Of a stretch of 64,000 bases of DNA, positions 4,184 through 39,000 are shown in pieces. Numbering within the stretch: position 1 is the first letter of the stretch; each line of letters begins with the position of its first letter. Under the pieces are notes generated by a model that saw only the letters and a list, made by a program, of their open reading frames with translations, did no database searches and had not been told where the DNA came from. The position numbers and the translations under genes were made by a program. The DNA comes from Daucus carota subsp. sativus (lineage: Eukaryota > Streptophyta > Magnoliopsida > Apiales > Apiaceae), in contig NC_030383.2 in assembly GCF_001625215.2 (NCBI RefSeq), positions 63,788,949 to 63,852,948 on the forward strand, in the 5' to 3' direction.

Positions 4184-4948
4184 GTGAGAATAAAGTTACC
4201 AAAGTAAAGACAAATCTAGAGCCTAGAGATGTATGACAACCATGAAAAGGAGCAAAACCGACGAGATAAAATTTCTTGTATTAAGATACTACTGTTGGTA
4301 TTTCTAGCCACTGAAACTTAAAACTTACTCCCTCCATCCCTCCCATTTCTTTATATTTTCCTTTTCCGGATGTCACATCCAATTCTTTACATTTCAAAAC
4401 TTACTCAAAATAGTCAATGGGTCCCACCACTTCTTCACTTTTCTTTCCTTTTCACACTACTTTTACTCCACTATCTTCTTTTTATACATTAAAAATCAAT
4501 GGGTCCACCACTTCACTCACTTTTCTTTCTCTTTTCCACTACTTTATACATATTTCTTAACCTCCGTGTCCAACCTAAACGATAAGAAATGAGAGGGACG
4601 GAGGTAGGGGAGAGCATGGGTCGGTTCGGTCCGGTTTTTGGATAAAACCGGAACCGCAACCATATATCTCCGGTTTTTAAAATCGAAAACCGCAACCGCC
4701 GGTTCGGATTCGGTTTCGGTTTGAAAAACCTCGGTTCGGTTGTAAACGGTTCGGTTTCGGTTACAAAACCGACAAATATATAAACGACAAAATAAATACA
4801 AAATAGGCTGATAATTGCAATACAAAAATATATAAATTTACATCGTAATTTAACACAAATAATAGGAGGAATGCATTTTATGTTTCAGGCTTGCAGATGA
4901 GAGAATCAAGTTAGAATTTCATAAAAAGATGATTTAAGTTTCCACATT

Positions 4949-4997
4949 TAGCTAAATATTTCTTTTTTTTTTTTTTTGACGGATAGCTAAATATTTC
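4949..4997 (-). mobile_element. Micro-retroposon: T15-GACGGA with target duplication
   Basis: A perfect 14-base direct repeat, TAGCTAAATATTTC (4949-4962 and 4984-4997), flanks 21 bases consisting of fifteen T followed by GACGGA. On the minus strand this reads TCCGTC plus poly(A). It lies inside the hAT-like element, so it came later. Confidence 0.7.
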
Positions 4998-5219
4998 ACT
5001 TCTGCCAAAATCACAAAGGATTGTGTATTGCTTGCCTCCCCATCCTAGATCATAGATATAAAAATAAAAAGGTCCAAAACCAGTGATGGACTATCTAATA
5101 AAAAGTATCATAATGTCAGGTTAATATTTCAGTAAGCAGGGGCCTGGAAGTATAAACTAATGCAGATGTGGAGTAAATAAATTGGATATAACAAATCTCA
5201 GTTGTTATATATATATAAA

Positions 5220-6660
5220 CTAGTTGAGAAGCCGCACGTTGCGGCGGCCTATAAAAATTATATTAACGATCTAATAATAATATTTGTAGAATGCAATAAT
5301 TTTGTGACTGTATATAAAAAATATATTAATGATTAAAAATTAATATATCTAGGATAAATTAAATTTTATATTATAAAAATCTTGATGTAATGTCAATACT
5401 AATATATAAAATTGCAAAATTAGACTATAATTCATATTGAAAATATGAAAATAAATTTCTACACGTAATTAACAATTTAAAGCACGACAAATCTTAATTT
5501 TATTTGTGTTTTTTTTTAAAAAGTATTCATGTACTTACATTGTCACCTTCCTCCAATTTTTTTGGATTGATTGTGCACAAAAACATCTAACTTAAATCTG
5601 TGCGATAGCGGTCTATAACTACCCTTACTTGCCACAACCTTTATTTTTTAATACTGTATGAACAGTCTTCACTTAAAAGTTGTTTGAACTGAGCAAACAG
5701 ATAATGCATGAATAATATTTTCTTGTGTGCAAAGTAAATCATATAAAAATTAACAACAACAAACATGTCCGATGAACAAAACAAATTTTATAAAAGAATA
5801 ACAAACAAACATACATCACTAATAGTTAATTTATTGATATCATCCATCAATATCATGTCAAGACTATATTTTTCTCCCGTGTTTGGATTTGTCGACTCCC
5901 ACGTAGCGGTCTATAACTACTTTTGCTTACAACAACCTTTATTTTTTTTAATACTGTATAAACAGCCTTCACCAGAAGAACGGCAACACCGAGTTAGAAA
6001 TCGAGCAAAAGAACTATCACCAGAGAGAGCTAGGGTTGTGATACCGAGAGAGAAGGTTGTGTTAAGATGATCCAAAACCCTACAACCTACAGGGGTATTT
6101 ATAGGTGTAGAGAGACTTGTGTGCTACTATTTCCCATAATTAAATAATTTGAAACAAAATCAGATTAAAACTTTCAAACAGCTATATTCCATAAATAATT
6201 TGAAACAAAATCAGATTCTGAAACTTGCTTCTAATATATCCGAAACTAAAAAAAGCAGTTCTAATTTTTGATATTTTTCATCTGAAAATTTCAGGAAATT
6301 AGAAAAATAAAACGGAGCGATTTGAGAGGCGCCACCTACACACCCCTCGCTCCTCCTTTATATAGAAACAAAATCAAATTAAAACTTTCAAGCTACTATA
6401 TTCCATAAATAATCTGAAACAAAATCAGATTATATAGAAATAAAATCAAATTAAAACTTTCAAACTACTATATTCCATAAATAATCTGAAACAAAATCAG
6501 ATTCTGAAACTTGCTTCTAATATATCCGAAACTAAAAAAGGTAGTTCTAATTTTTGGTATTTTTCATCTAAAAATTGCAGAAAATTAGAAAAATAGAACG
6601 GAGCGATGTGAGATGCGCCACCTACACGCCCCTCGCTTCTCCTTTATATAAGTATATTGA
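5220..6660 (-). mobile_element. Non-autonomous Helitron
   Basis: On the minus strand the 3' end is at 5220: it ends in CTAG preceded by a GC-rich hairpin (GCCGCA and TGCGGC, 5231-5244). The 5' end is at 6660, starting TCAATATACTTATATAAAGG and followed by the GC-rich GAGGGGCG region. The flanks are A on the left and T on the right, as for insertion into an AT dinucleotide. No Rep/helicase frame is present. The 5' part is duplicated inside (about 6130-6366 and 6370-6660), and a second internal repeat pairs about 5570-5670 with 5875-5970. Confidence 0.75.
6130..6660. repeat. Tandem duplication of the Helitron 5' terminal region
   Basis: Two similar units, about 6130-6366 and 6370-6660, each contain the AACAAAATCAGATT motif, the CTTGCTTCTAATATATCCG motif, a CGGAGCGAT motif and a terminal GCGCCACCTACAC plus CTCGCT block that ends in TTTATATA. 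Each therefore carries a Helitron-like 5' terminus. The right unit also has a partial extra repeat of the CAGATTATATAGAAA part. Confidence 0.8.
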
Positions 6661-6895
6661 TTATATATAAAATATTTATTATTTGATTATATTTTAATAA
6701 CCGGTTCGGTTCGGTTTTATCGGTTCGGTTGAGACGTATAACCGGAACCCAACCATTAAGTTCGGATCGGTTTTAAAATTTTCGGTTTCGGTTTCGGTTC
6801 GGTTTTGTTCGGATCGGTTTTTCCCGGTTTTCTTCGGTTTCGGTTCGGTTTCGGTTTTAATTCGGTTTTTTGCTCAGCCCTAGACGGAGGGAGTA

Positions 6896-7587
6896 TGAAT
6901 TAAGATGGTTTTGAATTTTGATTGACTTATATTCTTTGATAATGATATACTCCTTATATTTACAACAACCACACCAACCAAAACCATCCAAATTCATGAA
7001 ATTTAATACTTAGCATGTACTCGTGGACGGACACTAGAAAAAGAAAACAATTATGCAGAAATTTTGTAAAAATTGTCAAAACTTCATGGTCACTATCTTC
7101 AATTTTTTTTTTTTGACGAAACACTATCTTCAATTTTAATTCGACAGAAAGAGACCTTAATTTTAAGGACGGAATGAAATTACAGAACTTTCTGTATCCT
7201 TCTCTCTCTCAAACTCTAACCTCCGTTAAAATTTTTTGAGAGACTTTCATAAGTTTACATTTTTCACCGGCGAAAAGTCTTAATTCTTTCGTTTTCCGTT
7301 TTCCTGTTACATGATTTTCATGGGTTTGATTTAATTTTGAAAGTTATTCTAAGATCGCATTTATGATCGATTCTTTAGAACAGTCTGCTGATAAGTGAAA
7401 TAATTTAATCAGTAATACGAACTCAAATAGCAACTAGCAATACATTCTACATAGTAAAGCAGAAGTTGTAGCATATAAATGATGGATTAGTGTGTTAATT
7501 GTACGGAAAGCCAGAAATTAGGGGACATTAGATTACAAAAAGGACAACGAGCATTCCAATGAGATGAGCAGCAGCACAATTTAGTTA
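6896..7587. other. Intergenic, no gene seen
   Basis: No exon or RNA gene is recognisable. The only clear structure is the small poly(T) insertion at 7091-7137. Confidence 0.45.
7091..7137 (-). mobile_element. Micro-retroposon: T8-GACGAAA with target duplication
   Basis: A perfect 16-base direct repeat, CACTATCTTCAATTTT (7091-7106 and 7122-7137), flanks 15 bases of eight T followed by GACGAAA. Because the target duplication itself ends in T, the tail length is ambiguous. On the minus strand it reads TTTCGTC plus poly(A). Confidence 0.65.
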
Positions 7588-7846
7588 CTCCCTCCGTCCC
7601 AAAAAGCTTTTCTCGTTTGATATGTCGGGACTGTTCATAACATGAGACAAATGACTAATTTACGTCTAATCTATAATACTAAATATAGTCATGAGTGATC
7701 TTGTTGGGTTCGTATTTACGAGTACTTTAATACAGTGAAATTTTTATATTTAATACTAATATAAAATTAAAGATATTAATGATCAAAAGTGTGTGTTGGC
7801 AAACGTGAAAAGGAGAAACAGGAAAAGTATTTAGGGACGGAGGGAG
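7588..7846. mobile_element. Stowaway-like MITE
   Basis: It starts CTCCCTCCGTCCCAAAAAGC and ends TTTAGGGACGGAGGGAG between TA dinucleotides (7586-7587 and 7847-7848). The body differs from the other MITEs here, so it is another subfamily sharing the same termini. Confidence 0.85.
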
Positions 7847-7848
7847 TA

Positions 7849-16443: not shown

Positions 16444-16708
16444 ATATAATTTCGACCCTTGTATTGTGCAGAAAGTATATATCCATCCTTGTATTGTGGA
16501 AAAATGCAAGATGTATTTCTTGCATTTTTCGCACGAACACTTGGTCACAACCAACATTAGTCGTAGAGCTTGACCAACACATATATAGGTCTTATTAATC
16601 ATTTTTGACACAAAGTAGCACCTTTCATGCAAAATTCAGATATAAAATGCAGATGATTGAAAATTGCAGACTATCACTGATTGCTTGAAAAACAAAGATT
16701 ATGTTGTA

Positions 16709-17231
16709 CTCCCTCCGTCCCTTTTTACATGTCCTTTTTGAAAAAAAAAAATTGTCCCAAATTACTTGTTCACTTCTCTTTTCAAAGCAACTTTTTGTAT
16801 GTTTTTCCAAAATGTAACAACTTCCAATGTTTGACTAGCATATACTCCCTCCGTCCCTTTTTACATGTCCACTTTGACTTTTGACCAGTCAAATTGACTT
16901 TATTTTGACTGAACTTTACATGTATCAGATAATTGAGAAAAATAATAAAAATTATATCAATAGAAAGTACATTTAGTGTATTTTAATACGCAACTTTCAG
17001 ATTTTAAAAATAATGAGTAGATAATTTGTAATATTTAGTCAAAAATTGGTCAATTTGACTCCTCGAAATGCATAATGGACATGTAAAAGGGGACGGAGGG
17101 AGTATATATACACAACTCTATCTAATTCATTACATTTATTAGGGATATGTATGAAAACAAGATATCCACCTAACCTTTTCTTAAAATGCGTTATTTTTTC
17201 AAAAGGGACAAGTAAAAAGGGACGGAGGGAG
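16709..17231. mobile_element. Stowaway-like MITE interrupted by a second MITE
   Basis: The outer termini CTCCCTCCGTCCCTTTTTAC (16709) and GGGACGGAGGGAG (ending 17231) lie between TA dinucleotides at 16707-16708 and 17232-17233. Taking out the inner MITE at 16845-17102 leaves about 265 bases, the usual size here. Confidence 0.85.
16845..17102. mobile_element. Inner Stowaway-like MITE
   Basis: It has the same outer 20 bases as its host element but a different body, with a TTTTGACTTTTGACCAGTCAA-like arm and its inverse at the other end. TA flanks it at 16843-16844 and 17103-17104. This shows two subfamilies were active at different times. Confidence 0.85.
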
Positions 17232-17232
17232 T

Positions 17233-17820
17233 ACTATACATCTCTGTATCTGAAATCTGTCAATCAAGTTTATTGGCAACTCTTTCCCTTGTAAATATGC
17301 TCTGCTTGTCTTGTGAATGTCTGCCTTTCCCAATGTAGTTGTTTATATGTTTCAACAGGCATCTTGGCTGGCAATTGTCCCTGTTGTTAAATTCAGAGCC
17401 AAAATCATGTCAATTCTTGGCTTATCTGCAGATTGAATGCACTTTCCTGTGTTGCAGCTCTTTTTCTGCCCAGTTATCATCTTTTAAGACATTTTTCGAG
17501 TTCCTGAATTGAATGTTGGACGTCTAGTTTTCCGGTGAATGAAAAGATATCAAGATGAAATGTCAAAAGATTGATCAAAAATCGAGATCTTAGATGGCAT
17601 GTAATTAGAAGCTATTATTGAGAAGAACTGATTAAAGAACAACGAGAACCATAATGACAAACATTATACATTGTGTATTTATAACAGTTGCTATAGATGT
17701 CACACAATGTGAAAAGATAACATGTGAGAACCAGAGCATGATAAAGTGGGATCAAGTGGCTAAAGTACAACAATTTAGGTTCCATACAGGTGAACCCGGA
17801 AATGTGTGAAAAATGATCTT
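17233..17820. other. Intergenic, downstream of the BSD gene
   Basis: No coding exon is recognised. Part of it may be the 3' untranslated region of the minus-strand BSD gene. Confidence 0.4.
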
Positions 17821-21336: not shown

Positions 21337-21613
21337 CTCCCTCCGTCCCAATCATTTCTTTACACTTTTCTTTTTGGGATGTCCCATCCAATTCTTTGCA
21401 TTTCAAAACTTACCAAAAATAGTCAATGGGTCCCACCACTTCTCCACTTTTCTTTCCTTTTCACACTACTTTTACTTCACAGCTTTTTATACATTAAAAA
21501 TCAATGGGTCCCACCACTTTACCCACTTTTCTTCCTTTTTTCCACTACTTTATACATATTCCTTAGCCTCCGTGCCCAACCCATTTGATAAGAAATGGGT
21601 GGGACGGAGGGAG
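21337..21613. mobile_element. Stowaway-like MITE, intact
   Basis: CTCCCTCCGTCCCAATCATT at the start and GGGTGGGACGGAGGGAG at the end lie between TA dinucleotides (21335-21336 and 21614-21615). It is the same subfamily as the split copy at 4328 and includes the shared CAATGGGTCCCACCACTT motif twice. It serves as the uninterrupted reference for that nest. Confidence 0.9.
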
Positions 21614-36020: not shown

Positions 36021-39000
36021 ATGGGCCTGCAATTTCTTGTCTGGTTTGAGATTTTATTTCTCTTTGGTTGCTGCAAATTCGCTTTCTGTGACCAAAATGG
36101 TGAGTGTTTCCTACTTGTTTTGAATTCTTTAGTAGACATTCAAGAACTAGTTAGTACATTTTGCTGATATAGTGCTGATTGATCAGGTTTCTTGAGTTTA
36201 TCCTGTGGAGGAACTGAGAATTTTGTCGATTCTTCCAACATTACTTGGACACCAGATAGTACTTATGTGACTACTGGCACAACAAGCACTGCTAATTTCC
36301 CCGAGGGTAACTCTTCATCACTTATCCCAATTCGGTTTTTCCCTGAGTCGAAAGGTAGAAAGTGCTACTGGCTTCCAATAAAGAATGCGTCATCACTTGT
36401 TCTTGTTCGGGCCAAATTTGTGTACAAGAACTACGATGGACTTGCAAAGCCCCCTACGTTTTCTGTTTCTCTGGGAACGGCTATGGCTACTACTATAAAC
36501 CTTGCCAATGCTGATCCATGGACTGAAGAATTTTTATGGCCTGTAAACAAAGATTTTCTTTCTTTGTGTCTGAATTCAATCCCAGATGGTGGATTTCCTG
36601 TTATTTCATCAGTTGAGGTCCGGCCACTTCCTGAAGGAGCTTACGCCAGTAGTTTGCAGGATTCGCCTAATAAGTCACTTAGGAAGTGCTATCGCATTAA
36701 CTGTGGTTACACAAATGGATCTCTGCGGTATGAAATTTTCACTTCACATTTCCTTGTCTGTCAACTGTCAAGTCTTAAAAAAATGCCACATTTGTTTGAT
36801 TTTTAGGTACCCTTTGGATCAGTATGATCGTATATGGGAAGCAGATCAGGACTATACTCCCTTCCACTTATCAACTAGCTTTGATATTCAAACCGCCTTC
36901 AACTTGTCAAGCGACGATCTGAGTCTTCCATTATCCGTTCTTCAGACAGCAAGAGTCTTGACACGAAGAGAGGACTTGACGTATAATCTTCCTCTTAGTA
37001 GCATACTAGGAGACTATAGTATAGTTCTCTATTTTGCAGGCATTCTTCCCGTGTCCCCTACATTTGATGTGCTAATCGACGGAAGCCTTTTTCAGTCAAA
37101 CTATACAGTGAGGAGTGGTGAAGTCAGTAGCTTATCTTTTACCCTTTTTGGAACAAATAACATGAACATCACGTTGAAAAGCACGAGTTTCTACCCTCTG
37201 CTGAGTGCAATTGAGGTGTTTGAGATAGTATACATTCCTGCACCGTCTTCTACAACAACAGGTTTTGTTGCTTTTTTCATGTAATGCAAGGTCTTATAAT
37301 GCATTTTACGTCTTCCAGCTCATAACGAACAATTTCCTTTTTCAGTTTCAGCACTGCAGGTTATTCAAAAGTCGACTGGTATGAATCTGGGATGGGAAGA
37401 TGATCCCTGCTATCCAATGCCATGGGATCACATTGGCTGCACCGGCAGTCTGGTTACTTCACTGTATGCAGTTTTAGTATTGTTCGTATAATTGATCTTT
37501 CTGTTTCTTGGTTTCTGATCTTTGTTTTCTGAATTTCCTCACTCAGGGATCTCTCTAATATCATCTTGAGATCAATTGGCCCAAGATTTGGCGATCTACT
37601 GGATCTTCAGATCCTGTAAGATTCTTGGTTTCACAATACAATGTGCTGTTTAATGCTCTTGTAGCGGTCATCTTCCATGATGTCTAATGTGTTTCGTGCC
37701 ATACTGACAGAGATTTGCATAATACATCACTTGGTGGAGCTATCCAAAACCTCGGTAGCCTGCAACAACTTGAAAAACTGTAATGCTTTTAAGCTAATTA
37801 TGTTCCTATAGCATAGTTCCTTATGTTCTGAAGCGCTAATTGGAATAACATCTGCAGGAATTTAAGTTTCAATCAGCTGAAATCCTTCGGTTCAGAGCTA
37901 GAAGACTTGGTAAATCTTCAAGTACTGTAAGTTTAGAGATTTAACTCTATTTGATTTGGAAGGAGCTGATCCTTATGAACAGATTATAGTACTAATTCTT
38001 TATATTGTTATATGAAGGGACTTGCGAAACAATAGTTTAGACAGTACAGTTCCTGACAGCCTGGGACAGTTAAAGAACCTTCACTTGCTGTAAGTACAAT
38101 AGCCCGAAACTCAACAGAAGGTCACCTGTTATGTATGAAGCAAACTTTTAATCGTGTATTTAATTTATAGAAATTTGGAGAATAACAAACTGAAGGGCAC
38201 TCTTCCTCAATCTCTGAACAGCCGCGCTTTGGATATTAGGTATGCTGATGATAATATTATGGCATGTTTATATGATTTTATCTGACTGATCATTTCTGAG
38301 CAGAACATCGGGAAATCTCTGCGTCTCCTTTTCCATGTCCACCTGCAATGATGCTGATGTGTCGAGGAATTCTTCAATAGAAGCGCCTCAAGTTACACTC
38401 TTTACTACGCCAAAGAAGCGTAGTGGCCACATCCATATTGTAGTAGTACTTGCAGCAGTCGGAGGAGTTATATTCGCGCTTGTCATTGTTTCTATTGCAG
38501 TGTTAATGTATGTGAAGAGAAAGGACAAAGGAGTCGCATATAAAGAAAGTATGAATTTACCTTTGCTAAGTTCTATTCCCTCCGTCCCTTTTCAGTGGTC
38601 CTCTTTTGACTCTCAACGGTCAAATTGACTATTTTTTTCTCAATGATATAATATAAATAAAGTTCAGTCAAACTGTAGTCAATTTGACCATTGAAAGTTA
38701 AAACTGGACAACTAAAAATGGACGGAGGGAGTATTATTGATCTATTCACCGAGTTGATTTACATAAATTTGAGCAGGCATGGATATGCGGGACTGCATTG
38801 CAGCAAAATCATATTCCTACAGAGAAATTAAAGCAGCTACGAAGAATTTTAAGGACGTTATAGGCAGAGGAGGTTTCGGATCTGTTTTTGTTGGGAAATT
38901 TCCCAGCGGGAAGCAAGTAGCTGTGAAAGTACGATATGATAACAGTCAACTTGGTGATGATGCATTTATCAATGAGGTCCATACCCAAACCTTACTCAGC

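Follow-up and report, generated by a model that had tools for sequence, protein, structure and literature searches.

A Helitron within a hAT-like element within a Stowaway-like MITE in the carrot genome

Plant hAT elements carry an 8-bp target duplication, short terminal inverted repeats (TIRs) and subterminal repeats, and plant Helitrons have CTRR ends and insert between A and T. For carrot, Stowaway TIRs like those considered here have been described in the DcSto elements, and nested insertions into DcSto1 (primer sequence TACTCCCTCCGTCCCACC) are reported in the same source, involving DcSto2 and a Tourist-like MITE (PMC3695323). A word search of the main text of a 2025 review of plant MITEs does not return the word 'nested' (PMC12595863). 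Here we describe a locus within a 64,000-nt stretch of carrot DNA (the window) in which a Helitron lies inside a hAT-like element that itself lies inside a Stowaway-like MITE. The nested transposons are real and ordinary, another example of a familiar kind, and with a probability of about 0.96 they record four or more separate insertions at a single plant locus (MITE, hAT element, Helitron and a 21-nt insertion). Related copies were surveyed in the carrot assembly that holds the window (441 Mb, 11 contigs).

The window is gene-bearing, 8 of the 10 long ORFs that were scanned (out of 14 listed) matching NPH3, KIB1-4, malectin-like or F-box families and the other 2 giving no family match, while the ORF list of the window contains no frame above 101 aa (ATG, GTG or TTG start) that overlaps the nest. 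Elsewhere in the window a Stowaway lies within a Stowaway at 16707-17233 (TIRs of the outer element at 16707 and 17233, those of the inner one at 16843 and 17104, each pair with TA flanks), and further Stowaway-type TIR pairs, with up to two mismatches per TIR, are seen at 730-1037, 7586-7848 and 38574-38733.

Layers of the nest and their order

The outermost layer is a Stowaway-like MITE on the plus strand, flanked by its TA target duplication (4326-4327 on the left and 6894-6895 on the right) and divided into a left part (4328-4604), which includes one copy of GACGGAGG, and the final three bases GAG (6891-6893). Its right terminal repeat is broken by the hAT-like element (4605-6882). The TA duplication, the CTCCCTCCRTCCC TIRs, the short body and the high copy number are those of a Stowaway, and exact GGGACGGAGGGAGTA words number 11,246 in the genome. 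An uninterrupted MITE of the same family is present at 21337-21613 (plus strand), and the alignment of the two, proposed in the preliminary description, gives 87% identity, a value at which their placement in the same subfamily holds loosely. The left part also aligns to 29 further copies from a genome query that gave 44 matches (best 40 of 2,928 first-look candidates scored). Of these 29 copies (L002-L030, the window's own locus excluded), 28 are flanked by TA at both ends, and the exception (L024) has TT at one. Three copies (L004, L005 and L022) have identical flanks, the MITE thus riding there in a larger repeat or duplication, and are therefore not independent loci. Relative to the majority of the 29 copies the broken MITE carries 22 substitutions in 280 aligned bases and the MITE at 21337 carries 10 in 277, but the copies were chosen by likeness to the latter, so the comparison favours it, and part of the 22 differences may represent subfamily differences rather than age.

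The second layer is a non-autonomous hAT-like element on the plus strand with ends TAGGGGAGAGCA and TAGGGCTGAGCA, alike at 10 of their first 12 letters. The left part (4605-5219) carries the TIR TAGGGGAGAGCA and CGGTTCGG-type subterminal repeats, and the right part (6661-6882) ends in ...TGCTCAGCCCTA. Assignment to hAT follows from these short TIRs and from the exact 8-bp duplication of GACGGAGG, of which the first copy occupies 4597-4604 and the second 6883-6890 (both plus strand). Used as a genome query, the left part gave 45 matches (best 40 of 497 first-look candidates scored), including three near-full-length siblings (L032, L033 and L034). L032 and L033 are full-length copies, each bounded by its own perfect 8-bp duplication, and at the Helitron site their sequence is continuous and agrees exactly with the prediction from the joined flanks of the window. 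Among the 29 other hAT loci (L032-L060, the window's and L061 excluded) 24 have an 8-bp duplication that is exact or has one mismatch; of these, 23 were obtained by a duplication scan (20 exact) and one, L034, with CATGTATA on both sides, was read by eye; for the other five (L036-L039 and L050) no duplication was found within roughly 1.5 kb beyond the match. Gaps aside, the hAT part of the window shows 0 substitutions in 802 compared bases relative to L032 and 3 in 801 relative to L033. This near identity makes the hAT insertion and everything inside it, the Helitron included, look recent, and together with the 22 substitutions in 280 bases of the MITE these figures are in keeping with insertion of the MITE before the hAT element. 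As a separate observation, hAT-type ends (TAGGGGTGAGCA) recur on C1 at about 8.38-8.65 Mb, many of them at a spacing of about 5.3-5.5 kb, a pattern that suggests an arrayed repeat whose unit contains a hAT-like end.

The third layer is a non-autonomous Helitron on the minus strand (5220-6660), which reads from a 5' TC (6660-6659) to a 3' CTAG (5223-5220) preceded by a hairpin that is confirmed by folding, and is bordered by A (5219) and T (6661). The empty sites in L032 and L033 demonstrate that it entered between A and T with no target duplication, a trait that together with TC, the CTRR-type end and the hairpin places the element among the Helitrons. The genome query gave 72 pieces (best 40 of 1,981 first-look candidates scored), and the survey of ends comprises 15 non-window places, each matched as a single piece spanning query positions 1-1440. 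These copies start with TC and end with CTAG in 15 of 15 cases each, and have A upstream in 14 of 15 (L069/L070 has G) and T downstream in all 15. Internally, the window copy contains a partial tandem duplication (6151-6364 and 6437-6650, 214-nt copies 286 bp apart). A 72-nt unit is present in three copies within 6144-6650, a region where several other Helitron copies show overlapping pieces.

In a comparison with 12 sampled copies over 1,415 gap-free columns, 14 substitutions are private to the Helitron of the window. Had these arisen in place they would exceed what is expected from the host hAT element, with its 0 substitutions in 802 bases relative to L032, and the two divergence figures stand in some tension. 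The simplest account is that most of the private substitutions were inherited from a source copy outside the sample; alternatively, the hAT copies may have been homogenised.

The sibling L034 (also L097; C7) is the same hAT element carrying an insertion of about 2.7 kb (at about 24661866-24664569; length from coordinates). This insertion starts with TC and ends with CTAG on the strand opposite to the hAT element, has A and T as its neighbours and lies 6 bp from the site of the window Helitron. Its ends are the only ground for calling it Helitron-like. It contains Stowaway-like terminal words and may therefore hold further elements. The two neighbouring sites looked like a hot spot for Helitron-like insertions, with a chance of about 0.03 of such closeness for two random AT sites of the element, but this reading was set aside, since a liking for AT-rich tracts may explain the proximity.

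Since nesting fixes the order of the layers, the MITE inserted first, the hAT element second and the Helitron third. The preliminary description had arrived at these three layers, their boundaries and this order from the window itself, and all stand up to comparison with independent copies. Its coordinates are exact to the base, and the TA around the MITE, the exact 8-bp GACGGAGG duplication and the A/T flanks and TC and CTAG ends of the Helitron can all be read directly. It had further predicted that other genomic copies would share the same exact ends, which they do for the hAT and Helitron layers, and that hAT copies free of the Helitron would show the joined site, which is what L032 and L033 do; these uninterrupted siblings bear out the order. 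The number of events is where it fell short, as a fourth insertion had been missed.

A fourth insertion within the hAT-like element

Relative to L032, L033 and L034 the hAT-like element of the window has 35 extra bases within 4949-4997. They are accounted for by 15 T followed by GACGGA, placed between two exact copies of the 14-bp TAGCTAAATATTTC, the first at 4949-4962 and the second, recognised by repeat comparison in the window, at 4984-4997 (both plus strand); each of the three siblings has one copy only. The inserted 21 nt (4963-4983) read on the minus strand as TCCGTC followed by 15 A. Poly(A) together with a target duplication of variable length is the usual mark of target-primed reverse transcription of the LINE/SINE type, and with 15 A, a 14-bp duplication and absence from three siblings the insertion is probably a 5'-truncated target-primed retro-insertion. 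It is too short for assignment to a retroelement family, and a search for its source returned no second T7+GACGGA in the window or in the compared loci (the matches at L031 and L062 are the same place). The alternative that the 21 nt are filler DNA left when a staggered break was repaired, and not a retro-insertion, is the less probable of the two but deserves some weight: the insertion is very short and its 6-nt head TCCGTC has no source in the window or the compared loci, yet a 15-nt poly(A) next to an exact 14-bp duplication is, from general knowledge, what target-primed reverse transcription usually leaves. Under either mechanism the 21-nt insertion and the Helitron both postdate the insertion of the hAT element, and the order at the locus is MITE, then hAT element, then, in either order, Helitron and 21-nt insertion.

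Position of the hAT-like element in the MITE terminal repeat

The preliminary description stated that the hAT-like element chose the TIR of the MITE as its target. The position inside the TIR is as described, but 'chose' goes beyond the data, in which a preference is at most suggested. We regard it as unlikely that hAT transposases favour Stowaway terminal repeats (GGGACGGAGG) and that the location of the element is not accidental, and we are equally doubtful that transposases of several hAT families would favour the Stowaway TIR, in particular GACGGAGG, as an integration target. What speaks for such a preference is a second case. The junction of GACGGAGG with TAGGGNNRAGCA is found twice in the genome, in the window and at L061 (C3:9009290), where a 1,012-bp hAT-type element occupies the identical GACGGAGG site in another MITE and is flanked by an exact duplication. 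L061 has no substantial internal match to the window hAT element (best E 0.003) and would represent a hAT-type element of another family, and its host, a different MITE, is 68-69% alike to the window MITEs. A looser scan for the junction returns eight places, compared with 1 for a reversed control pattern, and 5 of the 8, namely the window, L061, L093, L094 and L095, are in a TIR or in sequence resembling one (the last three called TIR-like from the near MITE end alone). L093 has an exact CTCCCTCC duplication and L094 has GGACGGAG/GGACGGAA with 1 mismatch, both in TIR-like sequence, and L095 is placed there by one end, no second end being found within 5.9 kb. Other candidates were rejected as TIR insertions: C1:43697975 and C1:43711309 are identical in sequence, probably a single event that was later duplicated, and lie beyond a complete TIR, and L096 lies beside a TIR and not in it, no second copy of its 8-bp flank being found at a hAT end.

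The post hoc statistics for a target preference are weak. Expectations were calculated for uniform insertion from 15,188 GGACGGAGG words and from 1,925 hAT-type ends, reduced by the 53 of the control. They amount to 0.032 insertions at the identical position, where 2 are seen (P about 0.0005, post hoc), but one of the two is the window finding itself, and without the window P rises to about 0.03. When seven TIR positions are taken together and the window is left out, 1 insertion is seen relative to 0.23 expected (P about 0.20), and L094 and L095, which do not have the exact counted word, are therefore not comparable with these expectations. A control for the MITE interior (GGGTCCCAC and its reverse complement) is underpowered, giving 0 hAT ends among 4,772 copies; with about 66,800 oriented sites in the interior and about 106,300 in the TIR, a zero count would arise with a chance of about 0.09 given five TIR matches and about 0.23 given the three with the exact word.

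Two further points count against a preference. The hAT elements and Stowaways may share open chromatin, and GACGGAGG does not have the commonest letters of hAT duplications, which are T at position 2 (13/24) and A at position 7 (12/24) in a tally of 24 duplications that includes L061. In a separate check, the flanks of 30 hAT loci (L032-L061) were compared with the two window MITEs (400 bp to the left and to the right, or the 5' flank alone for loci where no duplication was found, and short or low-mismatch matches not counted). A position inside a MITE is seen for L061 only, and L057 is about 180 bp away from one. No work on a hAT preference for Stowaway TIRs was found among the titles and abstract openings of the matches listed in a limited literature search. 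If the preference were true, the abundant Stowaway ends would act as landing sites that draw in hAT elements and disable MITEs, and the recurrent hAT insertions in Stowaway TIR sequence pose a question for a full genome annotation.

Finally, movement of the hAT element and the Helitron as one unit, with the Helitron already inside when the hAT element landed in the MITE, is highly improbable, for although the window alone offers nothing against it and a Helitron-bearing hAT element could be mobile as a whole, only the window has this Helitron among the four near-full-length matches to which the comparison applies (best 40 of 497 scored, the remaining hAT matches covering the outer part of the element only), L032 and L033 being without a Helitron and L034 having other Helitron-like ends 6 bp away.

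Separate insertions and comparison with known systems

Four separate insertions lead to the following series, in which the enzymes are inferred for every step. The Stowaway-like MITE inserted at TA, and the non-autonomous hAT element then entered the right TIR of this MITE, duplicating GACGGAGG, presumably by cut-and-paste with hAT transposase supplied in trans. The non-autonomous Helitron entered the right part of the hAT element, where an AT-rich tract offered a site with A on one side and T on the other, and made no target duplication, and a 5'-truncated poly(A) fragment, if it is indeed of retro-origin, would have been reverse-transcribed into the hAT element with duplication of 14 bp. The biology of such a nest is already familiar; the value of the locus is that a base-exact insertion series with uninterrupted siblings provides a usable test case for transposon annotators.

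Each of the three main layers resembles a described kind of element. The hAT-like element is like non-autonomous plant hAT elements of the Ac/Ds superfamily in its 8-bp duplication, short TIRs and subterminal repeats. The Helitron is like other non-autonomous plant Helitrons in its TC start, hairpin, CTAG end, A/T site, lack of target duplication and many copies, but differs from the usual ones in its internal partial tandem duplications. The MITE, whose family majority begins CTCCCTCCGTCCCACCC (29 copies), resembles carrot DcSto1 as far as that family is characterised by size (DcSto1-rs 274 bp), TA duplication, the TIR CTCCCTCCGTCCCACC and high copy number (PMC3695323). This likeness is one of size, ends and copy number, and the locus differs from the DcSto1 nests reported in that source in that the inserted element is a hAT element, is positioned inside the TIR and is itself interrupted.
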